Below the pieces are notes generated by a model. The model saw only the letters and a program-made list of their open reading frames with translations, was not told the DNA's origin and did no database searches. Of a DNA stretch of 64,000 nt, positions 28,501 to 55,214 are shown one piece after another; the stretch's first letter is position 1; every line of letters starts with the position of its first letter. Both the position numbers and the translations under genes were made by a program. The stretch is taken from NCBI GenBank assembly GCA_017621815.1, contig JAGASK010000013.1:62001-126000 (forward strand), in the 5' to 3' direction. The stretch is from Lachnospiraceae bacterium (GTDB lineage: Bacteria > Bacillota > Clostridia > Lachnospirales > Lachnospiraceae).

Positions 28501-31500
28501 CGGTCAAACGGAAGCGGCAGTCTGACATTATTAAATGGTGTAACTATTTCAGGAAATACATACAGTGTCTATAATGACGGCAAGAGTGTCACTGTTGCGG
28601 GAAATTCTGATCTTTCAGGCAGTATTTATACAACAAAGGCAATTTCTGCAAGCGGAAGCGGCGTAAGCAGCCTGACGAAAACCTATACCATTTTGATGAG
28701 TTCTGTCACCAATGGAACCACGGTAGTTACGGGCAGTACGGATAACATTCATTATAAGCTTGGCAGTGCCGCATATGCGCTGATTCCTGCAAGCGGTGCA
28801 ACAAATCTGATAGCAGCCGGGAGTTATACGGTAACCTATAATAAAAACAGCGGCACCATTGCAAACGAAAGTAATTATACAAGCTATACCTATGGTACAG
28901 GTCTGACCCTTCCCATACCAGTAAGGACAGGCCATACTTTTGGCGGCTGGTATGAAGATGCAGATTTCACAGGTTCTGTTGTTACAAAGATTTCGAAAAC
29001 TGATACAGAAAACAAGAACTATTATGCAAAGTGGACAGCAGATAAGTACACTGTGACATTTGATTATCAGGGTGCAACCGGCGGCAATAATACGGCAAAT
29101 CAAGAGGTGGCTTATAACAGCACATATGGTAATTTGCCGATGCCTGTAAAATCAGGCTACACCTTTAAAGGATGGTATACACAGGCAGGCGGCGGTGGCA
29201 GTCAAATTATTGACACAACTGTTGTTAATACAACAGCTGAACATACGCTTTATGCTTACTGGAAGGATGAAACAGCACCAGATGAGCCAGTCCTTCAAAG
29301 CGCTGTGACACTGCCAGCAGGCTGGACGAACACGCAGAATACGATCCCCCTTACATTGAATGACGGAGTGGGAGTGACGGAGTTGTATGTCAGCATTGAC
29401 GGCAGTTCCTATACAAATGTGAGTGACTTTACAAGTGGCAGCAGGCAGTATTTTTATGCTGTCACAGAAGGAAATCACACTTATCAGTTTTACGCAAAGG
29501 ATGCAGCAGGAAATACATCAGAAGTAAGCTCTGAATTTACGATTAAGCTCGATACTGCAAAACCTGTTATTGGGCAACTGACTTACGAAAACAGGGCAGC
29601 GAACATTGGACAGTGGATTATCGGGAAAACGAGCCTGCTTATCCATGTACCGGTTACCGATGAAGGAAGCGGTGTAACGCAGATCATCTATACGATGACA
29701 CCGGTGGATGCGGATGGCAATCCTGACAGCAGTAAGCTGGAAAAAAAGACCACTTCTATTAACAGCAGTGGAAAAGCAACAATTACCTTTGATAAAGACT
29801 TTAAGGGAAACATCAACATTAGCTGCATTGATGCAGCAGGCAATCCCTCTGACAGTGTGACGATAAGCTCAGATGGCGGTGGTATTATTGCGGAGGACAA
29901 TGCGCCGAAGATCAGTTTTACTGTGGATGGTAATAAAATATCAGAGAGTTATTATGATACTGCTCCGGATATCCTGGTGAGTATAACTGATGATGAGGAT
30001 GACATGAGCAGCAGTATGATTACCGGTGGTATTAATTCTGTGACCTGTCAGATAGGCAGTGGTACATCAAAGGGAGATGATAATGATTATAGCACAAGCA
30101 TGGTAAAAAACAGCAGTTTCACCATTCTGGCAAGTGAAATTCCGATTGGAGAGACCAGGATTATCGTAACAGCAACAGATAATGCAGGAAATACGGCAAG
30201 TGAACATATTACTGTCAGGGTAAAAGACCTGGAGGCGACGCCGGATGCTGTAATCAGTTATATGGATGAAACCCTGACGGGTCTTGTGGCAAATACTGAA
30301 TATAAAATAAACAATTCAGTAAAGACAACAGATGAAAACGGAAGAATTATTATAGAGAGCAGCTGGTTTGGCACCACAATAGCCATTGTAAAAAAAGGCA
30401 GCAATACAACGACTCTTGACAGTACCGCACAGAGCCTGGACATACCGGAACGCCCGGAGGCTCCCATGCCGGAGCTTGCAAGCTGCACAGATACCCGGAT
30501 CACACTTCAGACGATTGCAAATGCGCAGTACCGCATGGAAAATGGTGTATGGCAGGACAGCACCACATTCAGCGGACTGACACCAAAAACGAAGTATACC
30601 TTTGAGGCATACTATCCGGCAACTACAAGCAGCTTTTGTTCTCTGGCAGGCAATGCTGTCATTGCGACCAGACCCATTGTACCCGGCAAAGACAGCGCAG
30701 CCGATTTGGTCATAATAGATTACGAGAAGGAAATCTTTTCAATCTCAGGTGGAGTGGAGATTTTTAAGGATGCGGCATGTACACAGCCGATTAACCTGAA
30801 TGAAGAGAATGATGTGACAGATTATATTGGAGACATAATTTATATACGCTATCCTGCAGATGGAGATTTCCCGGAAAGTGCAGTAACATCAATTCCTATT
30901 AAGAGCCGTCCGGCAGTTCCGGTTATTAGCTATACGGATGAAACCTATCCGGGTGCAGGTGACGGCGTCATTACAGGGCTGACAGAAGGGACTGTTTATG
31001 AGATTTCAGGCGATGGCGGAAGTACATGGATAGATGTTGTCTTAAGCGGCACGCAGATAAAAGGACTTAAGCCCGGTAATTACCAGGTGCGCATCAAGGC
31101 AGGAGAGGAAAACTTCCAAAGTGAAGCCTCAAGTACGGTTATCATAGGTTCAACTCCGTCCATAGAGGAAACAACACCACAGGCAGAAATAAGCTATGCA
31201 GATGAAGCCTTGACCGGACTGACACCGGGTGAGAAATATAAAGTAAGCTATATTACAACAGGTGGAACAGAGCTCACGCATGAATGTTTTGCGGATGAAA
31301 ACGGTAATATAAGGTTTGAGGAGAAATGGTATGGACAAACTCTTGAAATTGTAAAATCAGGAAATGACAAGGATAAGGCAGACAGTACTCCGCAGAGCCT
31401 GACTATACCGGCACGTCCGGTGGCTCCGAAGCCGAATGTCACAGGGGAAAGCAGTCCTGGAAAAAATAATGGCAGCATTTCCAATCTGACACCGGGAGAA

Positions 31501-32205
31501 ATATATGAGATTTCCTCAGACGGAGGCGCTACATGGCAGGATGTGACCGCCGGTGAGGATGGTCAGATTAAAAATCTGGAACCGGGTAGTTATGAGATAA
31601 GAGAAAAGGCAAAAGGCGGTTCCTTCAGTTCTGAAAGTGTTACGCTCAAGGTGGAAGCATATCCGGGTGGCAGCGGAGACAATGATTCCGGAGATAACCC
31701 CGAAGCCGGTGACAAACCTGCAACCGGAGATAACCCCGGAGCTGGTGACAACCCCGGAGCCGGTGATGAGCCTGCAGCTGGTGACAACTCCGGAACTGAT
31801 AATATTACCGGTAACATCTGGAAGGATATTGAAAAGGATGAAAAAGCTCCTGACACAGAATTTTCCATGGCAGAAGATGAATTGGCAATTGTTTTAACAG
31901 ATGTTGAAAAGCAGCCGGTAAAGGACAGTGAGCCGAAGACCGGCGACAATACGTCTCTGGAGCTGTATGCAACAGTGGGAATGATCGCAGGCCTGACTTA
32001 TCTGCTCCTGTATTTTGGAGCGGGTAAATGTGGTATGACGGAGGAAAAAAAGAGGGAGCTTACCGCAAAAATTATACGGTGGGCGCATCAGGGCGGAAGA
32101 ATCCGCAGAATTCTGGCACTTGCGGTTATTTTCCTGGTCCTGATGTATTATCACAGCATTGGGAAGAAAGTGACTGTGGAATGGAATAAAGTTTATGGAG
32201 AATAA
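25564..32205 (+). CDS. Giant sortase-anchored surface protein with beta-helix and Listeria-Bacteroides repeats
   Basis: A 2213-residue exported protein. A signal/membrane segment lies at residues ~30-50 (LVAGILIVALLAG). Residues ~105-210 are a Pro/Glu/Ser-rich stalk of degenerate repeats. Parallel beta-helix (pectate-lyase-like) stretches rich in GG, NN and SGG follow at ~460-720 and ~780-1080. Two InlB-type Listeria-Bacteroides repeats (HTFGGWYEDADF, YTFKGWYTQAGG) lie near 1090-1240, then Ig-like/bacterial adhesion domains and a GDNPGAGD repeat stalk. Near the C-terminus, EPKTGDNTS followed by a hydrophobic helix is a class B-type sorting signal. Unusually, ~60 more residues with a second hydrophobic helix follow. 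A sortase gene overlaps the end. It is probably an adhesin. Confidence 0.85.
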   Translation: MRLMGRFKKRVVQEIVNLRKKNFVIQKLVAGILIVALLAGQAGTIDVFADTNTDAEAVDIRRVITSFEELPEAVREQSVPVGTEPEALVLPDTLEVSVQAVAENPEKVESPEVTESPTPTPTESPEATESPSAIPEENPEEAENPSAIPTENPEEAESPSAILEESSEAAENPASTESPGNADNLIPTENPEETEEPENDTQTEDTGEMEKETVTVALNEVYSSLSEESVMETLTISKTVTIEGVTWISMPEYEGEAAGEYIFTAVLPQGYVLAECVCLPQIKVIVADGEQAVMTQISRWHFDEADVYPKGDLLCDEGSYSLVLAGGSSEVQIPLDEIISIFPESVTVEYADLNAGNNVIDECENADTEKILMNEEVLSIRGWNCPEYTEDEEGNLPCSGSFFFQALLGEEGDEKEYVFSEGIGPVGVWVTFDAPMLLSAVTAVPGTITSDQEWGEQTLAAGTYTIDPDVTVTVSGKLTVSGKVTITGGGKLVRADSYVGTSDSNGSYSTLIYVSGGSLTLENSTIDGNKVNACGPAVYMDSGTVTMNSGAVIQNNYNMNTGTGGGTYAAGGIYCGSYTTLNINGGKVQNCKTRGGTGSSSYNFAGGGIYLKGTCNMTSGSILNNYASNGGGIFLASTGATFNISGGNISGNTVSGAGKGIYYSTLTQTASKLYIGGNADIEDDIYLDNTKDGGLYPYITSKLNYKITLKCSSTDDGKVLGGGSGYTLTSVDASKISMADTGLYSVLDAANNKIILSTTEKQEAEWQETDGGEWKTGKFITALENVYSGGTIKLLKDIILAEKVEITKTVTITSKDSSKPYTITRMPSGEYGNITLTGSGSLTLTNIIYDGNRDYISSDAVTQSLIKIGSTSDTDASLTLGSGCRILNGYKSGGSGVIAVYGTMTMYSAAVIENCEVTGTGGAVWVSSSGTFTMNGGTIQSCKAGAGGSAVSVDGICNLSGGSITGNIDTSSMNCAVYLRSNGSGSLTLLNGVTISGNTYSVYNDGKSVTVAGNSDLSGSIYTTKAISASGSGVSSLTKTYTILMSSVTNGTTVVTGSTDNIHYKLGSAAYALIPASGATNLIAAGSYTVTYNKNSGTIANESNYTSYTYGTGLTLPIPVRTGHTFGGWYEDADFTGSVVTKISKTDTENKNYYAKWTADKYTVTFDYQGATGGNNTANQEVAYNSTYGNLPMPVKSGYTFKGWYTQAGGGGSQIIDTTVVNTTAEHTLYAYWKDETAPDEPVLQSAVTLPAGWTNTQNTIPLTLNDGVGVTELYVSIDGSSYTNVSDFTSGSRQYFYAVTEGNHTYQFYAKDAAGNTSEVSSEFTIKLDTAKPVIGQLTYENRAANIGQWIIGKTSLLIHVPVTDEGSGVTQIIYTMTPVDADGNPDSSKLEKKTTSINSSGKATITFDKDFKGNINISCIDAAGNPSDSVTISSDGGGIIAEDNAPKISFTVDGNKISESYYDTAPDILVSITDDEDDMSSSMITGGINSVTCQIGSGTSKGDDNDYSTSMVKNSSFTILASEIPIGETRIIVTATDNAGNTASEHITVRVKDLEATPDAVISYMDETLTGLVANTEYKINNSVKTTDENGRIIIESSWFGTTIAIVKKGSNTTTLDSTAQSLDIPERPEAPMPELASCTDTRITLQTIANAQYRMENGVWQDSTTFSGLTPKTKYTFEAYYPATTSSFCSLAGNAVIATRPIVPGKDSAADLVIIDYEKEIFSISGGVEIFKDAACTQPINLNEENDVTDYIGDIIYIRYPADGDFPESAVTSIPIKSRPAVPVISYTDETYPGAGDGVITGLTEGTVYEISGDGGSTWIDVVLSGTQIKGLKPGNYQVRIKAGEENFQSEASSTVIIGSTPSIEETTPQAEISYADEALTGLTPGEKYKVSYITTGGTELTHECFADENGNIRFEEKWYGQTLEIVKSGNDKDKADSTPQSLTIPARPVAPKPNVTGESSPGKNNGSISNLTPGEIYEISSDGGATWQDVTAGEDGQIKNLEPGSYEIREKAKGGSFSSESVTLKVEAYPGGSGDNDSGDNPEAGDKPATGDNPGAGDNPGAGDEPAAGDNSGTDNITGNIWKDIEKDEKAPDTEFSMAEDELAIVLTDVEKQPVKDSEPKTGDNTSLELYATVGMIAGLTYLLLYFGAGKCGMTEEKKRELTAKIIRWAHQGGRIRRILALAVIFLVLMYYHSIGKKVTVEWNKVYGE

Positions 32206-36111: not shown

Positions 36112-36346
36112 CTTAAAAGATGGCACTACCGATATCAGGTAAAGTATTTGAAAGCCATCTCTGAGTGAGCAAGGAGCAGGAACTGGAACTTGAGGTTATG
36201 TGGTTTTGGAATAAGATTGGGGTAAATGTGAACCAGATCGTGAAAAATAATAATTCCCATGTGTATAGGGAAAGTAATAAAATAAACTTAAATAAATATA
36301 TGGAAGAAATCACCGGGCTATTAAAAGAGTTGATTATGACGAAATA
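36112..36346 (+). pseudogene. Fused parM and mobC scraps of a decayed element
   Basis: Bases 36112-36167 match the 3' part of the intact parM-like gene (39898-39954). Bases from about 36170 to 36346 match the 3' half of mobC (from 42567), including the segment encoding GVNVNQIVKNNNSH. So two internal deletions joined the left end, a piece of parM and the end of mobC. A short open frame (36165-36347) reads the mobC C-terminus, but the DNA-binding start is missing. Confidence 0.85.
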
Positions 36347-36400
36347 GCTTTTAGAAGTGAAGAAAAATAGCATATGAATTTTGATTAGGAGGCAGACATC

Positions 36401-37147
36401 TTGGTATTATATTACACAGGAACAGGTAACAGTGAATATGTAGCAAAGAAAATAGGAGAGCAGATTGAAGATGAAGTCATCAATTTGTTCAATAAAATTA
36501 AAGGACATGACTATTCAGAAATACATTCGAGCAGGCCGTTTATAATCGTTTATCCCACTTATGCATGGCAGATACCAAGAATACTGAAAGACTTTATACA
36601 GAAGACTACATTTACAGGAAATAAATGCGTATATTTTGTGGCAACATGTGGAGACAGTATGGGAAATATGTCAAAGTATCTGACCGAGCTTTGTGAGCAG
36701 AAGGCATTCCAGTATATGGGGTGTGCAGAAGTAATTATGCCGGAAAATTATATTGCAATGTTCAATGCTCCCGAAAAAGCAGAAGCTGTTAAAATTGTTA
36801 AAAATGCTGATTTTGTTATAGGGAATATGGTTGATGTCATAAAGCATAATGGAACGATACCGAAGAAGAAAGTGGGGGCTGTTGCTAAGGTAAGCAGCGG
36901 AATAATAAATACCATATTTTATCCTTTGTTCGTAAGTGCAAAGAAATTTTATGCTACAGATGCCTGTATCGGATGTGGTAAATGTACCGAGGTCTGTCCC
37001 TTAAATAATATAAGTCTAAAGGCGGGAAAACCTGTGTGGGGCGATCAATGCACTCATTGCATGGCCTGCATTTGTAAATGCCCGAAAAAAGCCATTGAAT
37101 ATGGAAATAAGAGCCGGGGAAAACCAAGATATCAATGTCCATTGTAG
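36401..37147 (+). CDS. EFR1-family flavodoxin-ferredoxin fusion protein
   Basis: A 248-residue redox protein. The N-terminal flavodoxin-like domain has the FMN-loop YYTGTGNSEYVAKKIG, IVYPTYAWQIPRIL and FVATCGDSMGNM. The C-terminus has two [4Fe-4S] cluster motifs: CIGCGKCTEVCPLN and CTHCMACICKCPKKAI. It would move electrons between a reductase and an unknown acceptor in the cytoplasm. The start is TTG36401 with AGGAGG nine bases before. It is the first gene of the AT-rich cargo between the mobC scrap and the relaxase fragment. Confidence 0.88.
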   Translation: MVLYYTGTGNSEYVAKKIGEQIEDEVINLFNKIKGHDYSEIHSSRPFIIVYPTYAWQIPRILKDFIQKTTFTGNKCVYFVATCGDSMGNMSKYLTELCEQKAFQYMGCAEVIMPENYIAMFNAPEKAEAVKIVKNADFVIGNMVDVIKHNGTIPKKKVGAVAKVSSGIINTIFYPLFVSAKKFYATDACIGCGKCTEVCPLNNISLKAGKPVWGDQCTHCMACICKCPKKAIEYGNKSRGKPRYQCPL

Positions 37148-37208
37148 ATGAGAAATTATTGATGCAGGAAATATATTATTATATGAAAAAGTTGAGGAAA
37201 TAATTTAA

Positions 37209-37609
37209 ATGGTAAAATTGATTGAAAAGAATACTACAACTGCATATCTAAGGGCAATATCTGATAAGATCAAGGAAACAACTATATTCCATTTGAGAAT
37301 AAAGCAGCATATATTGCAGAATGCAAGGTATGGCATGGAAGTAAAAAATTTTTGGAAGCAATAGATCAGCTGTGTGGCTATACCACATGGCATGACACAA
37401 AAACATCATTGGTTATTTTCAATAAGGATAATAAGGATTTTGGAGCACTATTGGATAGCATAAATAAGACAGTAAAGGAAATGGACAGAGGAAAAGAAAT
37501 TATTCGTTTAGGTCAGAATGAGTGGCAAGGAAGATTTACCAAGGAAAAAGGTTCCAATGATATGCTTACCATTCATATAGCAGTATATGATTTATATATT
37601 AAAGAGTAG
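37209..37609 (+). pseudogene. Broken PD-(D/E)XK-like nuclease C-terminus
   Basis: An ATG at 37209 opens a frame that ends at 37361. From about 37290 another frame reads IPFENKAAYIAECKVWHGSKKFLEAIDQLCGYTTWHDTK and continues to 37609. The AECKVWHG segment gives the E-x-K of a PD-(D/E)XK nuclease, and QLCGYTTWHDTKTSLVIF is the usual continuation in a family of putative restriction-like nucleases. The upstream domain and the start are missing or out of frame, so I treat it as a fragment. An internal start at 37352 would make only 85 residues. Confidence 0.6.
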
Positions 37610-37627
37610 GATTGGGAGTTAATACAT

Positions 37628-38089
37628 ATGAAAACTTTTGAAGAATATAAAAAAGAATTAGATGAATATGGTAAAATCAGCAGTATTACTACGGAAAGCG
37701 GTATCTATAAGGTGCATATGCCACAAAATTTTGAGCTGGTCATAACGTCCGGGACAGATGCTATTAAAGTACATAGAGGTAAAAATTTATTATACCCAGT
37801 TCAAAAGCTGGAAGAGAAATGGGAGAGTATCCGGTTATTGGATAAGGAAGGTATATTATATGTTGGAAAAGCAAAAAATTTAAGGAGAAGGATTACAGAA
37901 TTTGTAAAATATGGATATGAAGATTGTAAGACACATCGTGGTGGACGGGCAATCTGGCAGCTTAAAAATAACAAAGAACTTTTGATAGAAATAATACCAT
38001 GTGGAAATCCAAGGGAAAAAGAAAGGCAATTACTTATAGAATATCATGACAAATATGGTGAATATCCTTTTGCAAATTGGCAGAAATAG
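37628..38089 (+). CDS. GIY-YIG-type nuclease domain protein
   Basis: A 153-residue protein. After an N-terminal segment with ESGIYKVHMP, the region from residue ~75 reads GILYVGKAKNLRRRITEFVKYG, a GIY-YIG core with the conserved Arg after the YVG motif. AIWQLKNNKELLIEIIPCGNPREKERQLLIEYHDKYGEYPFAN completes the fold with the catalytic-type Glu. The function might be DNA cleavage or repair. A weak GGGAG site precedes ATG37628. It lies in the AT-rich cargo next to the Smr gene. Confidence 0.72.
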   Translation: MKTFEEYKKELDEYGKISSITTESGIYKVHMPQNFELVITSGTDAIKVHRGKNLLYPVQKLEEKWESIRLLDKEGILYVGKAKNLRRRITEFVKYGYEDCKTHRGGRAIWQLKNNKELLIEIIPCGNPREKERQLLIEYHDKYGEYPFANWQK

Positions 38090-38119
38090 TAACCGATAAA
38101 GAAAGAAGAACTGTAAATT

Positions 38120-38371
38120 ATGATGTCAGGGATTATTGAGATTGACGTTCATGGAAAAAATGTTGAAGCAGCAATTGAAGAAATAAGGAAACATCTGAAT
38201 AATGTAAAGCCGAGTGTATATCGGATTCGGATCATACATGGTTATCATGGAGGTACAAGAATTCGGGATGGCATTCAGGATGAATTTGGTTATGAAAGAG
38301 AACCTAAAATAAAGCGCATCACAATGGGAGATAATCCGGGAATCACAGAATTGATACTACGGGAATTCTAA
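38120..38371 (+). CDS. Smr-domain protein
   Basis: An 83-residue stand-alone Smr domain. IDVHGKNVEAAIEEIRKHL has the Asp-x-His-Gly core, RIRIIHGYHGGTRIRDGI the second His-Gly motif, and KRITMGDNPGITELILREF the typical end of the Firmicutes members. Smr domains nick nucleic acids, mostly RNA on stalled ribosomes or recombination intermediates; which applies here is unknown. ATG38120 or 38123 is the start, with no strong ribosome site, so coupling to the GIY-YIG gene is likely. Confidence 0.82.
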   Translation: MMSGIIEIDVHGKNVEAAIEEIRKHLNNVKPSVYRIRIIHGYHGGTRIRDGIQDEFGYEREPKIKRITMGDNPGITELILREF

Positions 38372-38415
38372 ACAAAAGTGAGCTATGTGGAGACAGTAGG
38401 AGGACATGGTAAGCA

Positions 38416-38622
38416 ATGGTGAATGATTATTATGATGGATTGGCTTCCCATGAAATAAAATATCTGGAAAATATCCAGAAAATAGGTTCAGAAAAGGGTA
38501 ATTGTAAAGAACTGCAATCATTATGTAGAAAAGCTTACGAAGAGTATAGAAATGGAACAGTTTCTTCAGTGGCATATGGTAAGATATATGCTACGTGTAT
38601 GGATTATGCTTATCCAAGGTGA
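38416..38622 (+). CDS. Small hypothetical protein of cargo 1
   Basis: A 68-residue ORF, MVNDYYDGLASHEIKYLENI at the start and GTVSSVAYGKIYATCMDYAYPR at the end. I recognise no family. It follows the Smr gene by 44 bp with AGTAGGAGG a few bases before ATG38416, which supports translation. AT-rich codon use matches the rest of the cargo. The relaxase fragment begins 37 bp after its stop. Confidence 0.5.
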   Translation: MVNDYYDGLASHEIKYLENIQKIGSEKGNCKELQSLCRKAYEEYRNGTVSSVAYGKIYATCMDYAYPR

Positions 38623-38658
38623 AAAGCATGATTTAAAAATAAATGAAGGAGGCTTTAT

Positions 38659-38717
38659 ATCGCAATCACCAAACTATCCTGTATCCACCAGACAGGTACC
38701 CGTTACATAGCTATGTA
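38659..38717 (+). pseudogene. 5' fragment of a relaxase gene
   Basis: Bases 38659-38717 match 49407-49465 of the intact relaxase gene with only a few differences, encoding IAITKLSCIHQTGTRY. The match begins exactly at codon 2; the codon before it (TAT) is not a start. AAGGAGG lies just upstream. After about 20 codons similarity stops. The rest of that relaxase has been deleted. Confidence 0.88.
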
Positions 38718-41996: not shown

Positions 41997-42166
41997 AGAT
42001 ACGATCGCCGGAAGCGAAGTACCCGGAGAAAGTAAAAAAGAAGGTGCAGGCAAATAGTGGTACATAGAGCAGGAGATAAAAAGAATGGCGTCAAAAACAG
42101 GAGGTCTGACAGCAAAAACAAATAAACTGACAGCCAAGTGCTGTCACAGAAAAATTCGGGAATTTT

Positions 42167-42292
42167 ACTGGCGTAATTATATTGCAGTTTGGCGTCAGGA
42201 AAAAAATGATTGGCGCTAAAAACGAATGAATTGAAGTCACTAAACGAGGAACTGGCGTCAAATTTAGGATATTTGGCGCTGTTATTGAAAAC
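42167..42292 (+). repeat. Six 21-bp-period iteron-like repeats
   Basis: Units start at 42167, 42188, 42209, 42230, 42251 and 42272, each opening with a form of [A/T][C/T]TGGCG[T/C]. The fourth (ATTGAAGTCA) is degenerate but in phase, and a seventh weak unit follows near 42292. The 21-bp step is two helical turns, so bound protein would line one face. A related TGGCGTCA lies at 42086, and TGACAGC-CAAGT-GCTGTCA is a small palindrome at 42128-42146. Likely a binding array for MobC, the ParR-like protein or an initiator. With the hairpins beside it, it fills the 41867-42411 gap. Confidence 0.75.
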
Positions 42293-42309: not shown

Positions 42310-42385
42310 GTTCGGGGCTATTCCCCGACAAGATCTGCATTTCGTGCCCACGAAATGCGTATCTTGCGGCGTTCCATAGAACGCC
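42310..42385 (+). other. Candidate origin of transfer (oriT) with nic-like site
   Basis: GCATTTCGT (42337-42345) pairs perfectly with ACGAAATGC (42350-42358) across GCCC. Directly after comes GTATCTTGC (42359-42367), which resembles the P-type nic core YATCCTGY; cleavage would fall after the G at 42366. TCGGGG/CCCCGA lies before (42312-42328) and GGCGTTC-CATA-GAACGCC after (42368-42385). MobC starts 27 bp downstream and a MOBP-type relaxase gene is in the same operon. The layout matches known P-family origins; the nic position is inferred. Confidence 0.7.
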
Positions 42386-42411: not shown

Positions 42412-42750
42412 ATGCCAAGACCAAAAGGCGAAAACAATATCCGCAAACACTTCAAGCTGACAGAGGAAACAGTGAGAATACTTGAAGAACGATCTAAAGC
42501 GGAAAATATGAACGAGTCAGAGTACATCCGATACCTTCTCTTGAGCCAATCAGAGCATCCAAGAAGTAAAGAACTGGAACTTGAGGTCATGCGGCTTCGG
42601 AATGAGATTAATAAGATTGGGGTGAATGTGAACCAGATTGTGAAAAATAATAATTCCCATATGTATAGTGAAGGTGATAAAATAATATTAAAAAGATGTA
42701 TGAATGAAATAAGGGAATATTTACGGATTTTTTTGGAGAAGAAATTATAA
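42412..42750 (+). CDS. mobC: MobC-like relaxosome accessory protein
   Basis: A 112-residue DNA-binding protein. The N-terminal ribbon-helix-helix region is HFKLTEETVRILEERSKAENMNESEYIRYLL, and the MobC-type C-terminal half has LRNEINKIGVNVNQIVKNNNSHMYSE. It should bind oriT and open DNA for the relaxase. AGAAAGGAGC precedes ATG42412. Normally the relaxase gene would follow directly; here a 6.6-kb cargo separates them. A truncated copy lies at 36170-36346. Confidence 0.9.
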   Translation: MPRPKGENNIRKHFKLTEETVRILEERSKAENMNESEYIRYLLLSQSEHPRSKELELEVMRLRNEINKIGVNVNQIVKNNNSHMYSEGDKIILKRCMNEIREYLRIFLEKKL

Positions 42751-42776: not shown

Positions 42777-45700
42777 ATGTGTCAGAATAGTGGAAATGAT
42801 GCTGTTAGATATTCAAGGACAGGAGATGTTTTTCATTATAGATGGGTTGCATTAAAATGTTTGGATATGATTAATCCGTTATCTAATATTGATAAAATTG
42901 TTGTGGAAAATTCACAGGAGAAGATGGCAGGAGAATATGTTATTGATGTGTCTGAATATTTGAATGAAGGTAATTTACATATTAATTATTATCAGATGAA
43001 ACATACTGTAAAAGAAAAAGAAATTCCAGCAACAATATCCTTTTTTAAAAAGACTTTGGAGGGTTTTGCAAAAAGGTATATTGATTTGCGTAAGGAAAAA
43101 AAGCATAAAAATGTTACATTTTATGTCATTACTAATAGGAAGATAGATATTGCGGTAAAGGATAATATTCAAAAAAAGGCACAAGGTGTTGAATGTTCAA
43201 AACACTTTGATAAATATATTAAACAGTATACTGCTTTAGATAAAATTAGGTTGAGGGATTTTTGCAATAGGTTGGTGTTAGTTGATGGTTGCGGAGATTA
43301 TGAGGATTTATGGTTTGATTTATATGTAAAGACAAATTATTTGTTGGTGGGACAGCCGGATGAAACAGCAGTTGATAAGTTAGAGAGTATGGTTAGGAAG
43401 AAAGCACTACCAAAATCGAATGGTAATATTACTAAAGAGGAAGTATTAAAATGCTTAGGCTATCCTTCAGAAGAGTTTCTATTTCCAGCTCCGCAAATGC
43501 TCGAAAATATAAAAGGCATTGTGGATAGGGAAGTATATAAAGATATTATGGAGAAAATTGCCAATAAGGATAAATCGATTGTGCATGCTTCTGGTGGTGT
43601 AGGTAAGAGTATTTTTTCGCAATATATAAAAAGAAAAGCACATGGTGAAGTGGTTATATATGATTGCTTTGGGTTAGGGACATATAGAAACAGAAGCAAG
43701 GCAAGGCATGGTTTTAAAGTTGCGCTTACGCAGATAATAAGTGAATTAGCATCGATGGGATTGTGCGACTTTATGCTTATTTCAGGTGGTGCTACACCTG
43801 ATGAAATTATGCGTATGTTTTTGCAGAGGGTCGCTCAAGCGTGTGAATGTATCAGAAAGAGAGATGGAGGACAGAAATTGTACTTGCTCATAGATGCTGC
43901 TGATAATGCTGAAATGGCTGCTGATGAGTATAAAGAACCGTGCTTTGTTCATGAATTGTTGAGGGAAAGCGTACCAGAAGGATGCTGTCTTGTCATGATG
44001 TGTAGGACAGAAAGAAAGTATATGCTGAAACCATCGAAAGAAATTGCAGATTTTGAATTGCTTCCATTTTCGGAAAGCGAAGTAAAAAGTTATTTGAAGA
44101 ATAGCAATATAGGAAAGTTTAGTAATCAGGAGAATTTTGAGATTTTTCGTTTGACAGGAGGGAACCCAAGAGTAATTGCGAATGCCGTATCTTTTGGAAA
44201 AAGCAAAAAGGGAATATTAGCATATTTAGGTCCTAAAGGAACAAACGTAAACCAGCAAATAGAGTTTCAGTTGAAGAGGGCTGTTGATAATATAAAAGAA
44301 ACATTGTCGGAAGAGTTTCAGCAACAGATAAACAGCATTTGTCTCGGGCTGTCTGTATTACCTCCTTTTATTCCGATTTCTGTATTAGCTCAAATAGCAA
44401 ATGTAGATGAAAGCTCAATCAAAAGTTTTGTTGCTGATATGGGAAGGGCATTTTGGTTGACAGATGATAACGTTATTCAATTCAGAGATGAGCCAGTGGA
44501 AACATGGTTTAAAGAAAATTATGCTCCTGAAAAAGAAATAGTAAAGGTTTTTGCAGATAGAATTAAGCGGCAGGCAAAAGAATCTGTATATGTTGCTGAA
44601 GTTCTTCCTATGTTGTATTTATATGCCGATTGCTTGGATGAATTAATAGCACTTGCATTTGATGAAGAAGGATATCCTGAAAAGGATAAATTTGATAGCC
44701 GGAATGTAAAGCTGTTACGGTATAAATATGCCTTTAGAGGAGCATTAAAAGCCAAGAAATATACAGATACTGTAAAGATTGCTTTTCTAACAGCAAAGGA
44801 AACAGCAGGAAATCAAAGGCTATATGAATTGTTGAAAAAGAATGTAGATTTAGTTGCACTGTTTTCAGAAAAAAATGTTGTGCAAGAGATAGCGTTTTCC
44901 AGGATATTAAGAAGTCGTTGGCAGGGATCAGAAAATGTGTATATATCCAGTTTGTTATCAGGTTTTCCAGAATGTAAGGGAGAAGTAACGACATACTTGC
45001 GTGCATCTGGAAATTGGATTGGGATATATTTGGATGAACAGAAAAAAGATAGTAATAGAAGTTTTGGAGTTAGATTGGAGAATGAAGATATAAGTGAACT
45101 GGGGTATGCGGCATATAATTATGGAGGAATCGAATGTGTAGTTCATTTTTTTGAACAATGGATACCTAAAAGGATTGTATTTGAAATTATCAGTCTTTTT
45201 ATTTCAAGATTAGTGGATCAAGGAAAGTTTTCTGAAATCAATGAGTTTGCTATACAAATTTCTGGAGATCCATATGGTATTATGGCGGTTTGCAATGAAT
45301 TAGATAAAGTCGGAAAATCAGTTCAAAAAGATGCCATTGTAAAATGTTGGAATAATGGCATTAATGAATTATGGGATGAGCGGCTTGAATATAATAGAGA
45401 TGACAGAAAAATATTGGAAGGATTGACTTCATTTATTGAACAATCCATAGATAATATTGAGGACAATTCTCCAGTAATAGATTTAGTAAAAAAAGTTGTG
45501 CCAGTAAAGGCTGGCTATGATTTTTTGCGTGAAAACTATTCTGAAACGAAATCTGTGTTTTTACGCGGGAGAGCTATTAAGAAATATCTTGGTTTTGACT
45601 TGGAGCAAGAAGACTGGTTGCCGGATAAGAAAGAGAAGGAAACTGCAAATAAAATTATGGAATTATTATTTCCACTATATGCTATTCGCTTAGATTTGCT

Positions 45701-48700
45701 TTTAGGCATAGAGAATATAGAAATTGTTTCCCAATGTTCAGGTGCAAGAAATAATGGATGGATGGAAATGCTTCTTGATCAGCATAATCTTTTGAACGAT
45801 GTTGCAGTTGCTCACACTAAAATTCTTTTAGCCGGACAGAGTTTAGAAGAGGGCATAGTAAGAGAACTATTAAAATGCATACAAAATATAAAATTATATG
45901 TGGAGGATGAAATTACATTTTTAAGAGGGATTGTAAGAAACGAAAAGCTGCATTCGATATGGGAGGAAGTAGAGCAGGGAATATCAGAAAGACTTCAAAA
46001 AATAGAACAAAGTGGAGAAAATGTGAATGAATTGCCTGAATGGTATCTCTTATTTTCAAGGGCATTATTGGCGGGTGATCCATCAGAAGCGCATGCATAT
46101 TTTAATTTAGGGATAGAAAGTATAAGTGGTTTGAGTGAAGAAATAGTATCTGCGTCAAAGCAAATGATAGAGATATGCGAAAAATCCGCAGAGAGTTATC
46201 ATAAGGAATCAATGCTGGCTAACCAGTTTGGCAAATATATGGAAAAAGTATATGATGCTCTGTATGGAGATTGGTCTGGCAAAAGAGCTATTCAAGCATG
46301 TATAAAATTGTCTCCGGCAGATGGTTTGGCAATAATAAGTAGGTTCAGGGATGTAGACGAAAGATGGGTGGATTGGCTGTTTGAGGAGGCGGTAGAAGAA
46401 TTCATTTCCACAGGTTATTTATCCCCATCAGAGGGATGGGCATTATCAGCATTTATGCCTGATAAAAGAATTAAGGATTTCTCACAAAAGTGTTCAGAAT
46501 ATGAGGTAAATCATGAGAGAGCAGTTTGGATAAAGGAAAGTGGTGAGAAATATTGTCAAATGATAATGCTGCCACAGGATAATAATGTTTTAGGAACATC
46601 TTATAGTGGTAAGAAATTGGATATCGACAATGAAAAAGTTGAAGAGGCATTTAAGGATATTAATTTGCTGTCACAAGATGGACTGAAAGAATTGTTAGTC
46701 AGAATTGATGGATATAAGAATTCTAAGATAGCAGAAGCGGCTTATGAAAAGATGTTCAGCAAAGTGACAAGGGACAAAAGACTAAACTTTTTAAATAATT
46801 TGATAGATGCGCAGGATATATCTTTTAATACTTTTTTAGAGGTTATCAAATATGTACCAAAAGCATGGACGCAACAGTTAAGTATACAGAGGGAAAGCAA
46901 TAGGTTTGTATACAAAATATGCAGCAGATGGTGTTGGGAATTACTAGGAAGGTATCGCAGGCAGCAATTTGTAGAAAATATGCCTTTTGATGTAAGAGAT
47001 AACCAACAGGCTTTTGAAGGATTTATGGATGGGCTTGCTTTAGTGGAGGATTTAAGTAGTCATAATCAATATATCGAATATATCAGCGTTGCCATGCATT
47101 ATTTAACATCTGGTGATGCAAAGGAAATATTGGAATTTGCGTTAAATATGATGTTGGAAAAAGATGAGAACAAGAATGGGAAAAATGAAGTACCTTATAG
47201 AGAAAGTGACTATCCGACAGGTGAGAAACAATTGGCAGGTTTCCTTTATGCAGCTTTAGGGTCGCCAGTTGCACAAACACGGTGGGAAGCTGTACATGCA
47301 GTTATAAGACTGGCAAAAATGAAATGTACGGAAGTTTTGCAGGAACTTGTCAATTATGATACAGATGTATCAGGAGTTTTTATAGGACAGGAGTATGTTC
47401 ATTATAAATTGCACTCTATTTTATATTTGCTAATAGCTCTTTACAGAATTGCAAAAGAGGATAGTGATATTGTTATTCCATTTAAAGAGAAATTGATTTT
47501 TTACGCATCAGAGTTTATGGAACATGCTTTGATACAGAGAATTGCTTTAGAGATAATAAAGCTTGTATATCAAAAAAGAAATTCCGTATTTGAAATGGAA
47601 GAATATGATAGATTGATGTCAATTGCAGTAAGCAATTATCCTGTAATTGACAAAGAAAAAAATGCTGGCAGCGGAGATAATGAGGATAAAGAAAGCTTTT
47701 ATTTCGGATATGATATGACAAGATATTGGTTTGGTGATTTAGGCAGGGTTTTTGGCGTATCAGGCAAATATGTTGCAGAACGAGTAGCAAAAGTGATAAC
47801 AGAACAATGGGAAATTAGTAGTTCAGGCACTTATAAAGAAGATCCCAGAAAAAATATGTGGGAAGATTCGGCTTATAGGGAACGAATATATCATTCACAT
47901 GGAAGTTATCCGTCTGTAGATACCTACAATTTCTATTTATCATATCACGGAATGATGGTAGTTGCCGCTCAGTTGCTGCAAGAAAAACCTACAGTAAAAG
48001 GACTTTATGATGAAAAGAATCCTTGGGAATACTGGATAAAAAGACATTTGCTTTCAAAAAATGATGGATATCTCTTATCTGATATGAGGGAAGAAATACC
48101 ACATGATATAGAAATGTGGTATGCAGTCGATAAAAATGAATTATGGATGCAAAATCCCGATGAGAAAGATTTTATGTCCCAAATAGTGCATGGAGATGAG
48201 ATGTGTATTAATGGATATTGGATGCAGAAAGACGGAAATTATCAAGAAGAGGTTCGTATTGCGTCTGCATTAGTTTTTGAAAAAAGCGCAGAAGCATTGG
48301 TATGTACATTAATGGGATATGAGGATTCCAATGATTATAAATTGCCAGAATATTTGGAGGATGAAGAAGAAAGCAATATTTCACCTTTTATATTAAAAGG
48401 ACTGGTAAAATCTGAGTATCATGATTCAAAATTAGATGGCTTTGATCCCTGGGCAGGAAATGTACAAAATTGCACAATTGAAATAGGTGAAGAATATAAA
48501 AAATTTCTCTGCGCTGAGCAACAAAGAATGCAATGCTGGAGTTTCCAAAATGAGAATGAAAATATGAATGGAGCAAGACTGCTTGTATCTCAAGATGGCT
48601 TGAAAGGCATTGTCAAAAATATGCAAATGCTTATTATATTGGAGGTGCAGATAACAAGAAATCATACATATCATTACAAGCGTGATGACTATACATATAG

Positions 48701-48761
48701 GTCCCCTGTACACAGAATATATTTATTTAATGGAGAAGATATAATTTATGGAGAAATTTGA
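42777..48761 (+). CDS. Avs-like STAND ATPase with N-terminal Cap4-type nuclease domain
   Basis: A 1994-residue protein. Residues ~12-200 look like a Cap4/DUF4297 PD-(D/E)XK nuclease: TGDVFHYRWVALKCL, Glu44, Asp57 and the Gln73-Met-Lys75 motif before HT. A STAND-type ATPase follows: Walker A SGGVGKS (Gly273-Ser278), Walker B LYLLIDAADNAE (Asp373, Asp376), and sensor-like MMCRTERKY (Arg410). Residues ~620-1994 are long helical repeats suited to sensing. This layout is that of Avs (AVAST) antiphage sensors, where target binding triggers DNA cutting. Codon use is clearly AT-rich compared with the element. GGGGATGG precedes ATG42777, and the 219-residue gene overlaps its end. The phage trigger is unknown. 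Confidence 0.72.
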   Translation: MCQNSGNDAVRYSRTGDVFHYRWVALKCLDMINPLSNIDKIVVENSQEKMAGEYVIDVSEYLNEGNLHINYYQMKHTVKEKEIPATISFFKKTLEGFAKRYIDLRKEKKHKNVTFYVITNRKIDIAVKDNIQKKAQGVECSKHFDKYIKQYTALDKIRLRDFCNRLVLVDGCGDYEDLWFDLYVKTNYLLVGQPDETAVDKLESMVRKKALPKSNGNITKEEVLKCLGYPSEEFLFPAPQMLENIKGIVDREVYKDIMEKIANKDKSIVHASGGVGKSIFSQYIKRKAHGEVVIYDCFGLGTYRNRSKARHGFKVALTQIISELASMGLCDFMLISGGATPDEIMRMFLQRVAQACECIRKRDGGQKLYLLIDAADNAEMAADEYKEPCFVHELLRESVPEGCCLVMMCRTERKYMLKPSKEIADFELLPFSESEVKSYLKNSNIGKFSNQENFEIFRLTGGNPRVIANAVSFGKSKKGILAYLGPKGTNVNQQIEFQLKRAVDNIKETLSEEFQQQINSICLGLSVLPPFIPISVLAQIANVDESSIKSFVADMGRAFWLTDDNVIQFRDEPVETWFKENYAPEKEIVKVFADRIKRQAKESVYVAEVLPMLYLYADCLDELIALAFDEEGYPEKDKFDSRNVKLLRYKYAFRGALKAKKYTDTVKIAFLTAKETAGNQRLYELLKKNVDLVALFSEKNVVQEIAFSRILRSRWQGSENVYISSLLSGFPECKGEVTTYLRASGNWIGIYLDEQKKDSNRSFGVRLENEDISELGYAAYNYGGIECVVHFFEQWIPKRIVFEIISLFISRLVDQGKFSEINEFAIQISGDPYGIMAVCNELDKVGKSVQKDAIVKCWNNGINELWDERLEYNRDDRKILEGLTSFIEQSIDNIEDNSPVIDLVKKVVPVKAGYDFLRENYSETKSVFLRGRAIKKYLGFDLEQEDWLPDKKEKETANKIMELLFPLYAIRLDLLLGIENIEIVSQCSGARNNGWMEMLLDQHNLLNDVAVAHTKILLAGQSLEEGIVRELLKCIQNIKLYVEDEITFLRGIVRNEKLHSIWEEVEQGISERLQKIEQSGENVNELPEWYLLFSRALLAGDPSEAHAYFNLGIESISGLSEEIVSASKQMIEICEKSAESYHKESMLANQFGKYMEKVYDALYGDWSGKRAIQACIKLSPADGLAIISRFRDVDERWVDWLFEEAVEEFISTGYLSPSEGWALSAFMPDKRIKDFSQKCSEYEVNHERAVWIKESGEKYCQMIMLPQDNNVLGTSYSGKKLDIDNEKVEEAFKDINLLSQDGLKELLVRIDGYKNSKIAEAAYEKMFSKVTRDKRLNFLNNLIDAQDISFNTFLEVIKYVPKAWTQQLSIQRESNRFVYKICSRWCWELLGRYRRQQFVENMPFDVRDNQQAFEGFMDGLALVEDLSSHNQYIEYISVAMHYLTSGDAKEILEFALNMMLEKDENKNGKNEVPYRESDYPTGEKQLAGFLYAALGSPVAQTRWEAVHAVIRLAKMKCTEVLQELVNYDTDVSGVFIGQEYVHYKLHSILYLLIALYRIAKEDSDIVIPFKEKLIFYASEFMEHALIQRIALEIIKLVYQKRNSVFEMEEYDRLMSIAVSNYPVIDKEKNAGSGDNEDKESFYFGYDMTRYWFGDLGRVFGVSGKYVAERVAKVITEQWEISSSGTYKEDPRKNMWEDSAYRERIYHSHGSYPSVDTYNFYLSYHGMMVVAAQLLQEKPTVKGLYDEKNPWEYWIKRHLLSKNDGYLLSDMREEIPHDIEMWYAVDKNELWMQNPDEKDFMSQIVHGDEMCINGYWMQKDGNYQEEVRIASALVFEKSAEALVCTLMGYEDSNDYKLPEYLEDEEESNISPFILKGLVKSEYHDSKLDGFDPWAGNVQNCTIEIGEEYKKFLCAEQQRMQCWSFQNENENMNGARLLVSQDGLKGIVKNMQMLIILEVQITRNHTYHYKRDDYTYRSPVHRIYLFNGEDIIYGEI

Positions 48762-49407
48762 TTATGCAGTATTAGGACAACTAATTATAAAACAGCTTGG
48801 CTTTGAAGATGAAAATGCAGATTTGACTTCTAAGTGGATGGCAAATTATGTAGCACAAAAAATGAAAGAGGCAGAAAGTGTAATTGGCAAGCAAAAAGAT
48901 GAGGCAGAAAAGGAATGTTATAGGGCAATAATTGAATTATGGAAGTATAGGAAAGCTTGGTTGGAAGATGGCAATCCGTATAAAGATTTGAAACCTGTTA
49001 TGGATACAATAAAAAAATTAGAACCAGAAAACCAAAGATATTTTTACTGGAACAATAATAAAGAACCTGATAATATCAAACCAGAAGTTCAGCAAATACT
49101 GGATATTATTAAGTGTGTTGATAAATCAGCGAGAGTGTGTTTGGAATATTTAATTAAATGTGCGTTAGAAGCAACAGTTGATGAAGAAATGCAAAAATGG
49201 ATAAAAGCTGCGGATAATTTCTCGAATGAAAATGCTGAAGATGTATTTTTACTTAGACGTTTTATAATGCATGACCAGTTAAATGATGATGCTTCTCTAA
49301 AAAAAGGTAAATTAAAAGAGCGTATTCAGATATTAGAAGAGTTTCAAGACAAAAGCAGAGAATTAATGCGGCTATATCAAAAGGAGTTAGAAGAGGAGGA
49401 TAACTGA
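48748..49407 (+). CDS. Unknown partner of the Avs-like protein
   Basis: A 219-residue, probably helical, soluble protein that I do not recognise. Landmarks are DLTSKWMANYVAQKMKEAES near the start, ECYRAIIELWKYRKAWLEDG in the middle and ERIQILEEFQDKSRELMRLY near the end. It starts 14 bp inside the end of the ATPase gene (GGAGAAG before ATG48748), so the two are translated together, and it shares the same AT-rich composition. Its stop codon overlaps the relaxase start region. I infer an accessory, regulatory or antitoxin-like subunit of the defence candidate. Confidence 0.65.
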   Translation: MEKFDYAVLGQLIIKQLGFEDENADLTSKWMANYVAQKMKEAESVIGKQKDEAEKECYRAIIELWKYRKAWLEDGNPYKDLKPVMDTIKKLEPENQRYFYWNNNKEPDNIKPEVQQILDIIKCVDKSARVCLEYLIKCALEATVDEEMQKWIKAADNFSNENAEDVFLLRRFIMHDQLNDDASLKKGKLKERIQILEEFQDKSRELMRLYQKELEEEDN

Positions 49408-50921
49408 TCGCAATCACCAAACTATCCTGTATCCACCAGACAGGCACACGTTACATGGCAATGCACCTTGCAAACGCCATTTCCTACATCACAGACGGAG
49501 AGAAAACGCAGGGAGGCATACTGGTGGGAAGCCATAACTGCAGCACTGACACTGCTTTACAGGAGATGCTTGCCACAAAAAGGAAATTTGGCAAATTAGA
49601 CAAGCGGCAGGGCTACCACTTTATCATATCCTTCAAAAACCAGGAGGTAAGGCCGGAGACCGCAATGGAACTTACACAGAAGTTTGTGGAACGTTTTTTA
49701 GGAGATGATTTCCAATGCCTATATGCCACCCACGACAACACCCGGCACGTACACAGCCACATCATTTTCAACAGCGTGTCATGGAGAAATGGCAGGAAAT
49801 ACCGTTATGAGAAGGGCGACTGGGCAAGGAAGATACAGCCCATCGTCAATGACCTCTGCAGAGAGTATGGTCTTTCCATACAGGATATTGAGATCGGGGC
49901 AGAGAAAGAACAGAAGAAATGGGATAAAACAAAACAGGGACCTTATAAGTGGAATCACCAGATCAGGCTTGATGTGGAGGATTCCATTTCTTTTGCCACG
50001 GATCATGAGAATTTCCTGAAATTAATGGAAGTTAAGGGCTATGAGATCAGGCAGAAGGACGGGGAAACTTACTTAAAGCCAATGGGAGAAAAGCGGTTCC
50101 TTGCGCTGACGGACATTTCAGAGCATTATACGGAAAAGATCATAGCAGAGAGGATAGAGAAGGGGATATTTGCGGAAAAGGAGCAGATGAAAAATAGATC
50201 GCCCCAAATGATCAGGTGCAGGAAAAATTACAGGAAATACATACCGCCATCCTTTTACCAGAAAGCGCTCCTTGCAAAAATGTACCGCACAGGGCAGTTA
50301 AAAAGACAGCCTTACAGCAGGATGTGGAAATACAGAAAGGAAACTGTAAGGTTTGAACATTTACAGGCGCAGTACCTTTACTTGTGCAGGCATGACATCC
50401 GAAGCGTGGAGGAATTAAAGGAGCGGAAGGAATATCTTACCCTGAAAGAAGATGCCCTGTCAGAAAAAAGGAAACAGGTCTATAAAAAGCGGTATCCTTA
50501 TAAAGCAGTGATCGCACTGCTCAAAACAATTGAAGAAAATGAAACACGTGCTTCCTACTATCAGGCAGGGAGCACTTTTTATGCTTCTTATGATGAAAAG
50601 TACAGGGAAGCCTTAAAGGGTTTAGAACAGGCAGGATATACAAGAAGGCAGGCAGAAGCCTTAAGGGAGTCCTTCCAGACAGAACTTGCCCAGATACAAA
50701 AGGCAAGGAAAGCCCTGAAAAAAGAAGACCTTCTGATAGAGGGTATCCTTACGGAAAGGAGAGCAAAGGTAATTACACAGGAAAGACAGGAACCACAAAC
50801 CAGTGAACCAGCCCATTTTAAAATAGATCATACCAGAACATACAAAGAAAAGAAGAAAGGAAGGAGCCATGCAGAAACCATTAGAGAGCATGACAAGGGA
50901 AGAGATGATATCCCACTTTAA
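49404..50921 (+). CDS. MOBP-type relaxase
   Basis: The enzyme that nicks oriT and pilots the strand during conjugation. The N-terminus reads IAITKLSCIHQTGTRYMAMH, then ISYITDGEKTQGG with the motif I Tyr. Motif III is HDNTRHVHSHIIFNSV, the metal-binding His set. The C-terminal half is basic and helical. The only early ATG (49455) would remove ~17 conserved residues. CTG49404, four bases after GGAGG and followed by the conserved frame, is a better start. Both element copies begin to match exactly at the next codon. It overlaps the next gene by 53 bp. Confidence 0.87.
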   Translation: MIAITKLSCIHQTGTRYMAMHLANAISYITDGEKTQGGILVGSHNCSTDTALQEMLATKRKFGKLDKRQGYHFIISFKNQEVRPETAMELTQKFVERFLGDDFQCLYATHDNTRHVHSHIIFNSVSWRNGRKYRYEKGDWARKIQPIVNDLCREYGLSIQDIEIGAEKEQKKWDKTKQGPYKWNHQIRLDVEDSISFATDHENFLKLMEVKGYEIRQKDGETYLKPMGEKRFLALTDISEHYTEKIIAERIEKGIFAEKEQMKNRSPQMIRCRKNYRKYIPPSFYQKALLAKMYRTGQLKRQPYSRMWKYRKETVRFEHLQAQYLYLCRHDIRSVEELKERKEYLTLKEDALSEKRKQVYKKRYPYKAVIALLKTIEENETRASYYQAGSTFYASYDEKYREALKGLEQAGYTRRQAEALRESFQTELAQIQKARKALKKEDLLIEGILTERRAKVITQERQEPQTSEPAHFKIDHTRTYKEKKKGRSHAETIREHDKGRDDIPL

Positions 50922-53369: not shown

Positions 53370-55214
53370 TTGAAAAGACCAAATGTGTCCACCTGTCTTT
53401 TTTATGTCCTTCTGCTGGCAGGGTGCCTGTATCTGGGGCTTTTCCTCGGAGGAGTTATAGAGCAGGATATGACCATATATACGCTTGTCCCGGCGCTTAA
53501 GGAAGCATACGCCCATCCCTTTGAATTAAATGTAACAGCCTATACTCCTTATACTATAGCAGCGGTGTCGGCTACTGCCATTATGTACCTGATGGTGCAG
53601 AAAACAAACCAAAGGAATTACCGCTTTGGGAAGGAGCATGGCTCTGCCAGATGGGAGGAAGCAAAGGCGGTCACTAAAAGACTGGGAGATAAAGACGGAT
53701 ACCACCGCATCCTTTCACAAAATGTACGGATATCCTTAAATACCAGAAAGACCATGCTCAACAACAACGTGTTCTGCATCGGCGGGAGCGGTGCCGGAAA
53801 GAGTCTGTTTCTTATCAAGTGTAACCTGATGGAGATGCAGGGCAGTTTTGCAGCCACTGACCCCAAAGGGGAGCTCCTTGGAAGTGCAGGCGGGTACCTA
53901 AAAGCAAACGGTTACCAGATCAGGGTGTTTAACCTGATCAATCCCGGGGAGAGCAATGGTTACAATCCCTTTGCCTACATCCGCAGTGAAACGGACGTGA
54001 TCAAGCTGATCACCAACCTGATGAAAAATACCACGCCCAAGGGGAGCAGCAGCAATGACCCTTTCTGGGAAAAGGCTGAAAACCTGTTTTTACAGGCACT
54101 CTTTTACTATGTGTGGATGGAGATGCCGCCGGGAAGGAAAAACTTCCTGTCCGTCCTTGAGCTCCTTGCAGAAGCAAAGGTGGAAAAAGAGGAGCCAAGT
54201 AAGCTGGATCGGCGTTTTGACCTGCTGGCAAGGACCCATCCGATGGGGGAAAGACACCCGGCAGTGCGCCAGTACAGGAAGGTCATGGACGGGGCAGCCA
54301 GTACCGTAAAGAGCATCATCATTAGCGTAAACGCAAGGCTTGCATTCCTGGAAAATGAAGAGGTAAAGCAGCTCCTTGAAACAGATGAACTCCATTTTGA
54401 AGAGCTTGGCACAGGCAGGAACGGGGATAAAAAGACAAAGACAGCATTGTTTATCGTTACGCCAGATTCGGACAAATCCTATGCCTTTCTTGTAGGGATG
54501 CTCTATGAGCAGCTGATGCAGGAGCTTTACTGTCAGGCAGATACAAAATACGGGGGCAGGCTTCCCATCCATGTGACCATGTATCTGGATGAGTTTTATA
54601 ACACGCCCCTTCCGAATTCCTACTTAAATTTTTTGAGCACCATGAGAAGCAGGGAGATATCCAACGTGATCGTGGTGCAGAACATTGCCCAGGTGAAGGA
54701 GCTTTTCAAGGACAGCTGGGAGACCATACCGGGCAATGCGGACACCCTTGTGTATCTTGGGGGCAATGAGCAGGGGAGCCATAAATATATCAGTGAGCTC
54801 CTTGGAAAAGCCACCATTGATAAACGGAGCAGCGGAGAGACCATAGGGAAGCATGGCAGCGCCAGCAGGAACTATGACGTGCTTGGACGTGAGCTTATGA
54901 CACCGGATGAGGTAAGGAAACTGGACAATAGGAAGTGCATCGTCCTGATCCGGGGCTGTGACCCGGTCATAGATTTTAAATTCAATACCTTTAAGCATCC
55001 CATGTTCCAAAAAAGCGGGGATGGGAAAGGCAAGTGGTATGTGCACAATCCGCAGAAGAAAAAGGGGATGGATATCATGGACAAAGAAACTGCAGACCGG
55101 ATGAAAAAGGAAGCAGGGGAGGATGGGAATGTCATCATCACCACCATAAGGGCGGAAGAACTGATAAGCCTTGGAAATACACCGCCGGAAAGGCAGGAGG
55201 TACAGACAATGTAA
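53370..55214 (+). CDS. VirD4/TraG-type coupling protein
   Basis: The hexameric ATPase that recruits the relaxase-DNA complex to the secretion channel. The 614 residues start with two membrane helices (residues ~8-27 and ~55-72), then NYRFGKEHGSARWEEAK, Walker A GGSGAGKS (138-145), FAATDPKGELL, the Walker B-like MYLDEFYNTPLPNSYLNFLSTMRSREIS and a C-terminal ILIRGCDP-type segment. The start is TTG53370; the next ATG would delete the first membrane helix. It is co-transcribed with the DUF3801 gene upstream. Confidence 0.92.
   Translation: MKRPNVSTCLFYVLLLAGCLYLGLFLGGVIEQDMTIYTLVPALKEAYAHPFELNVTAYTPYTIAAVSATAIMYLMVQKTNQRNYRFGKEHGSARWEEAKAVTKRLGDKDGYHRILSQNVRISLNTRKTMLNNNVFCIGGSGAGKSLFLIKCNLMEMQGSFAATDPKGELLGSAGGYLKANGYQIRVFNLINPGESNGYNPFAYIRSETDVIKLITNLMKNTTPKGSSSNDPFWEKAENLFLQALFYYVWMEMPPGRKNFLSVLELLAEAKVEKEEPSKLDRRFDLLARTHPMGERHPAVRQYRKVMDGAASTVKSIIISVNARLAFLENEEVKQLLETDELHFEELGTGRNGDKKTKTALFIVTPDSDKSYAFLVGMLYEQLMQELYCQADTKYGGRLPIHVTMYLDEFYNTPLPNSYLNFLSTMRSREISNVIVVQNIAQVKELFKDSWETIPGNADTLVYLGGNEQGSHKYISELLGKATIDKRSSGETIGKHGSASRNYDVLGRELMTPDEVRKLDNRKCIVLIRGCDPVIDFKFNTFKHPMFQKSGDGKGKWYVHNPQKKKGMDIMDKETADRMKKEAGEDGNVIITTIRAEELISLGNTPPERQEVQTM

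Follow-up and report, generated by a model that had tools for sequence, protein, structure and literature searches.

The 64,000-nucleotide stretch of Lachnospiraceae DNA analyzed here (the window) carries two open reading frames that overlap by 14 bases on the forward strand. The first, avs3a (42777–48761), has an ATG start and encodes a 1994-residue nuclease–STAND–sensor protein that matches the Avs3a profile over nearly its full length; the second, avs3b (48748–49407), also has an ATG start and encodes a 219-residue, predicted all-helical protein. The pair is bordered on the same strand by mobC (42412–42750), a gene for a MobC/NikA-like relaxosome accessory protein (PF21983, E = 2e-9; PF05713, E = 2e-6), and by a MobA/VirD2-type relaxase gene (49407–50921; PF03432, 1e-37) with a probable AUC start. 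GC content is 0.33–0.36 at 43–49 kb, against 0.43–0.50 in most adjacent conjugation genes. The two frames and their AT-rich DNA are as the original prediction for this locus described them, and its assignment of the large protein to the Avs-type nuclease–STAND proteins was borne out as well.

PADLOC identified the 1994-residue protein as Avs3a (E = 0), and SeAvs3 (8dgc; E = 4e-224) was its sole PDB sequence match at E ≤ 10. A six-frame search of the window DNA with the Avs3a model covered profile positions 1–1258 and 1345–2079 of 2083: Homology runs along the whole length of the protein, as in Avs3 (AVAST type 3). NCBIfam names Avs3a too, yet scores it below the curated equivalog cut-off (1255.9 of 2800 bits), and Avs3b also falls beneath its own (131.3 of 200 bits). 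These cut-offs are naming thresholds narrower than the Avs3a/Avs3b family, and we therefore file the pair as divergent Avs3 rather than as NCBI equivalogs. Pfam NACHT matched the large protein slightly below its curated cut-off (E = 1e-5).

Domain assignments rest on profiles and on an alignment of the window protein with 28 homologues (20–69% identical to it), 29 sequences in all. The Cap4-like PD-(D/E)xK nuclease region, about residues 1–240 (42777–43496), is matched by the LmuA profile over residues 8–242 (E = 6e-10); within it D57 (42945–42947) and K75 (42999–43001) are invariant in all 29 sequences, and Q73 (42993–42995) is conserved in at least 90% of them. The STAND NTPase motifs follow: Walker A, GGVGKS (residues 273–278; 43593–43610), with G274, G276, and K277 invariant and G273 conserved in at least 90%, and Walker B, DAAD (residues 373–376; 43893–43904), with D373 and D376 invariant. 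Such invariance argues that the nuclease and NTPase motifs, both of which had been predicted, are not chance matches. The C-terminal sensor region, about residues 640–1994 with an approximate border (44694–48758), is homologous to Avs3a over nearly all its length (profile positions 1345–2079, E = 6e-126). All of these features lie on the forward strand.

The closest proteins found are 67–69% identical to the window Avs3a; the next, a shortened protein, is 57% identical, and the rest are at 37% or less. Full-length homologues outside the 67–69% clade share about 34% identity with the window protein, which belongs to a divergent Lachnospiraceae clade. Against 18 more distant homologues, identity averages 0.38–0.46 up to residue 800, 0.18–0.24 over residues 801–1400, and 0.26–0.32 over residues 1401–1994. 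A Pantoea protein (locus L100) whose first 100 residues look by eye almost the same as those of SeAvs3 is ~31% identical to the window protein across 1838 aligned residues and 0.20–0.28 identical in bins of residues 801–1600. Given this low identity to a SeAvs3-like protein, notably in residues 801–1600, the trigger of the window Avs3a could differ from that of SeAvs3. Avs3 is an already known system, of which the window protein is, judged by sequence, a divergent new member.

The small protein had been thought to fit no family. That was mistaken: It is Avs3b (PADLOC, E = 7e-37), the name that NCBIfam also gives it below cut-off. The proposal of a two-gene antiphage system holds for the pair, now Avs3a plus Avs3b, but not as a new system, AVAST type 3 having already been described. 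A scan of a species-genome collection returned 326 Avs3a relatives, of which the best 80 loci, a non-random sample, were retained and scored for linkage with an iterated Avs3b profile. At 72 of these best 80 of 326 loci, avs3b lies directly downstream of avs3a on the same strand, as the original prediction had suggested might be checked; one of the 72 (L071) has a downstream ORF of only 138 aa. Six of the eight exceptions (L068, L096, L102, L103, L116, and L120) have an avs3a match at most 135 bases from a contig end, and the other two (L046 and L100) have avs3a ORFs that end early at the C-terminus (1634 and 1978 aa). Among the best 80 of 326, every full-length avs3a for which downstream sequence is available is accompanied by avs3b. 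Neither a missing Cap4 or STAND fold nor homologues occurring without the partner outside defence was found. Because avs3b is retained right beside avs3a across phyla, full-length Avs3a probably depends on Avs3b as an obligate partner. Its predicted structure consists entirely of helices (mean pLDDT 75); a PDB search found no solved structure matching it by sequence, and a fold search with the predicted model gave no significant match.

The surrounding genes point to an integrative and conjugative element: in addition to the relaxase, there are a VirB4-like ATPase downstream of it (PF19044, 8e-15) and a VirD4/TraG-type coupling protein (53370–55214, forward strand; PF02534, E = 5e-52). The pair had been predicted to lie on mobile DNA, and it does, between mobC and the relaxase gene; its place inside the relaxosome operon, in a variable slot, had gone unnoticed. 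Only 26 bases separate mobC from avs3a, and the avs3b stop shares bases with the probable start of the relaxase gene. On this spacing mobC, avs3a, avs3b, and the relaxase gene look like one operon, and the avs3 pair may be co-transcribed with the mobilization genes. Elsewhere in the window, positions 25564–32205 encode a 2213-aa protein with Listeria–Bacteroides repeats, perhaps a surface protein.

Upstream of mobC, multi-locus alignment delineated a putative oriT on the forward strand, consisting of an inverted repeat with 10-bp arms and a 2-bp loop (42337–42358) and a putative nic region, GTATCTTGCGG (42359–42369), which we take to resemble the RP4-type nic. Immediately past this site come mobC and then the pair. 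The inverted repeat and GTATCTTGCGG occur in nine of ten loci compared, the window included. The tenth, a Gabija locus (L036), is the sole one without the conserved oriT-like stretch upstream of its mobC, and the exact 28-mer TTTCGTGCCCACGAAATGCGTATCTTGC is absent from it. Among 37 genomes of the genus, 8 carry this 28-mer, at 14 places in total; in a family sample of 397 genomes, it is present in 1, at 2 places. Upstream of the oriT-like site, at about 42160–42290 of the window, TGGCGT-type motifs are repeated, a feature common to several related loci.

Related loci were collected by a relaxase-similarity search covering 36 genomes of the genus, among them that of the window, plus 24 from elsewhere in the order, with ten places fetched at length, and further loci were then added through the oriT-like pattern. 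In all 11 loci with both borders (the window, L033–L041, and L194), mobC and the relaxase gene are 1.3–6.9 kb apart; two other intervals of the element, from p40685 to mobC and from the 50869 gene to the coupling protein, span 340–548 bp and 1397–1474 bp, respectively (7 loci each). Slot GC content is 0.26–0.34 in eight of nine loci measured and 0.417 in the ninth (L037). By eye, the final mobC codons vary with the first cargo gene, and mobC ends alike within the two Avs3 loci and likewise within two loci with metallophosphatase cargo. This covariation of mobC ends and cargo fits a model in which homologous recombination within mobC and the relaxase gene exchanges the slot cargo.

The 11 two-border loci hold eight cargo types. 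Avs3 occupies the window and L040, and a 1798–1806-aa metallophosphatase–NACHT protein with a partial match to the PADLOC candidate PDC-S60 occupies L033 (465–5861) and L041 (5475–10895). L036 carries Gabija GajA/GajB and, right after them, an 828-aa protein (3294–5780) that neither Pfam nor PADLOC matches at E ≤ 0.01. Lamassu LmuA/LmuB (L038), PDC-S31/DUF2971 (L039), and DUF4297–HerA (L194) are found once each. DUF4238 with SEC-C is present in L034 and L035, of which L035 further carries a Smr-like ORF and a 477-aa ORF without a match. L037 carries flavodoxin, Smr, and cupin genes. We count 8 of 11 loci, the window included, as having defence or PADLOC candidate-defence cargo. Three loci stay outside this count: L034 and L035, because their matches (E = 2e-8 and 5e-10) come from the short SEC-C-motif region, and L037, whose best PADLOC E-value is 0.002. 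At E ≤ 0.001, PADLOC matched none of 10 sampled non-slot genes of the window, a figure per gene rather than per locus. Two one-border loci carry PDC-M62 and Rmr (L199) and SAVED-2TM and JAB, parts of CBASS (L175). The DUF4238–SEC-C protein has a 276–292-aa neighbor without a PADLOC match in both L034 (8882–11057) and L035 (7971–10065), a candidate two-gene module.

The window also contains a relic second slot (36168–38715, forward strand) with the same borders as the intact one. It comprises the 3′ part of a mobC (36168–36326; 59% identical), flavodoxin/Fe-S, GIY-YIG-like, and Smr-like genes—the GIY-YIG and Smr matches lying slightly under Pfam cut-offs—and a relaxase 5′ end (38659–38715; 57 bp at 93% identity).

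The oriT-like 28-mer is followed by mobC at 12 of its 16 places. At L198 it stands without mobC beside cargo with BrxP as second gene, and element backbone lies upstream (L205). At the three others, neither mobC nor a relaxase gene occurs in the stretch read: L195 holds type III restriction-modification, a methylase, and CARF; L197 holds MzaB, MzaE, a cytosine methylase, and Vsr; and L196/L203 holds genes that by eye are AbiE-like. The island at L195 is flanked by genes for a RumA-like methyltransferase and a serine recombinase (L201/L202), and a RumA-like gene lies upstream of L197 too (L204). PADLOC was run on the cargo of 13 of the 16 places, and 10 of these counted as defence or candidate defence (the window, L033, L038, L039, L041, L194, L195, L197, L198, and L199, but not L034, L035, and L037). 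L040 and L196 fell outside the scan, and L200 ends too early; by tblastn, L040 holds avs3a and avs3b and is the eleventh defence-bearing place.

At the right border of the slot, the relaxase frame appears to begin at an AUC codon (49407–49409) that overlaps the avs3b stop (TGATC) and precedes the ATG at 49455 in the upstream direction. At the DNA level, the relaxase gene is conserved from ATCGCAATNAC onward, 5–8 bases 3′ of GGAG(G). All 12 relaxase 5′ ends that were not fetched with an ATC pattern, the window's among them, have ATC as this codon. Just before it, the window and G008:C21 alone have CTG; the remaining 5′ ends have different codons there. In relatives at 31–45% identity with the end aligned, the same position holds TTG (23), ATG (4), or GTG (1), that is, a start codon in 28 of 28. 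These patterns are strong circumstantial evidence, not proof, that the relaxase initiates at AUC.

We conclude with high confidence that the pair constitutes an AVAST type 3 (Avs3a plus Avs3b) antiphage system, that it belongs to a divergent Lachnospiraceae clade, and that an integrated conjugative element carries it as cargo in its oriT–mobC–[cargo]–relaxase operon; the family, motifs, linkage, position, and variable slot are shown directly. In the original Avs papers, Avs3 in particular reportedly recognizes the terminase. Binding of a viral protein by the SeAvs3 sensor leads to tetramerization, pairs the nuclease domains, and switches on DNA cleavage (PMC11291478), and Avs1–Avs4 act as nuclease effectors whose triggers are terminase, portal, or Ksap1 (PMC12931631). 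By homology with SeAvs3, the sensor at the Avs3a C-terminus would bind a protein of the phage, with the large terminase subunit as the likeliest candidate; Avs3a with ATP bound would assemble into a tetramer, and its paired N-terminal Cap4-type nuclease domains would turn active and cleave double-stranded DNA. The infected cell would then be lost ahead of phage release. Avs3b would act with Avs3a as its likely obligate partner, perhaps as a subunit or a regulator.

The sensor of this clade might instead read a phage protein different from the large terminase (portal, a Ksap1-like protein, or other), as the drop in identity to 0.18–0.26 at residues 801–1600 against the 18 more distant homologues and the separation of the 67–69% clade from other full-length homologues (~34%) would allow. 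We consider this unlikely: The C-terminal part matches the Avs3a model strongly (E = 6e-126) and retains invariant positions from 1494 to 1890. That the locus is an inactive, decaying remnant appears improbable. Decay is frequent in mobile cargo, and the window itself carries the relic slot at 36168–38715, but both avs3 frames are open, the catalytic residues are retained, and the same slot of another genome in the window's genus (L040) holds an open-frame copy at 67% and 64% identity, with some ambiguous bases in its DNA. A reading of the pair as a Lamassu- or DUF4297–HerA-like nuclease system rather than Avs draws on the Cap4/DUF4297 kind of N-terminal domain (LmuA profile, E = 6e-10) and on the presence of both systems in the same slot of related loci. 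It is extremely improbable and close to refuted, the whole large protein being Avs3a-like and Avs3b being present, with no LmuB-type or HerA partner beside the large protein. Lamassu combines LmuA with a separate LmuB ATPase; here, only the N-terminal domain matches LmuA, and the partner is Avs3b.

The window pair shares with Salmonella SeAvs3 (PDB 8dgc) the Cap4-type nuclease, the STAND NTPase, the long sensor at the C-terminus, and an Avs3b encoded downstream; it differs in that its Avs3a is ~31% identical over aligned residues to the SeAvs3-like protein, in scoring under the NCBI equivalog cut-offs, and in being carried within a mobilization operon. Less related loci of the same family (L155–L174), which we take to be Tn1549-like MobC–relaxase modules, likewise have MobC and then a relaxase 37–42% identical to the window's. 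Unlike in the window, mobC and the relaxase gene are adjacent in 18 of 20 of them (gap of 35–73 bases to the relaxase match), the other two having one 117-aa ORF in between, and relaxases of such relatedness start mostly with TTG rather than ATC. Plasmid leading-region islands place anti-defence genes by oriT (PMC11541004); immunity-related genes adjoin oriT (putative here) in both cases, whereas the elements studied here have whole defence systems on the mobC–relaxase side, leading or not. The islands at L195 and L197 resemble iOriT elements and oriT mimicry (PMC11389934) in having a relaxase-less oriT-like sequence on an apparent chromosomal island; they differ in carrying restriction-modification, CARF, or Mza genes and in having their oriT-like sequence in common with a conjugative element that carries defence genes.

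The original prediction had not included the slot, the AUC start, or the islands with an oriT-like sequence but no conjugation backbone. We propose, as a reading evenly balanced between right and wrong, that the mobC–relaxase interval by oriT serves a Lachnospiraceae conjugative element family as a dedicated, exchangeable slot for defence, that whole cassettes are swapped there between the mobC 3′ end and the relaxase AUC, joining defence and transfer in one operon, and that backbone-free defence islands sharing the oriT ride the same machinery. For Avs3, the assignment of the 219-residue protein removes a supposed orphan and adds near-strict linkage data for a protein without a solved structure found. 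The AUC-started relaxase, if real, would be a rare instance of near-cognate initiation that can be tested; its start would escape gene callers limited to ATG, GTG, and TTG. The slot predicts where to seek unknown defence genes, and its unmatched cargo, the 828-aa protein of L036 and the DUF4238 modules of L034 and L035, supplies a list of candidates.
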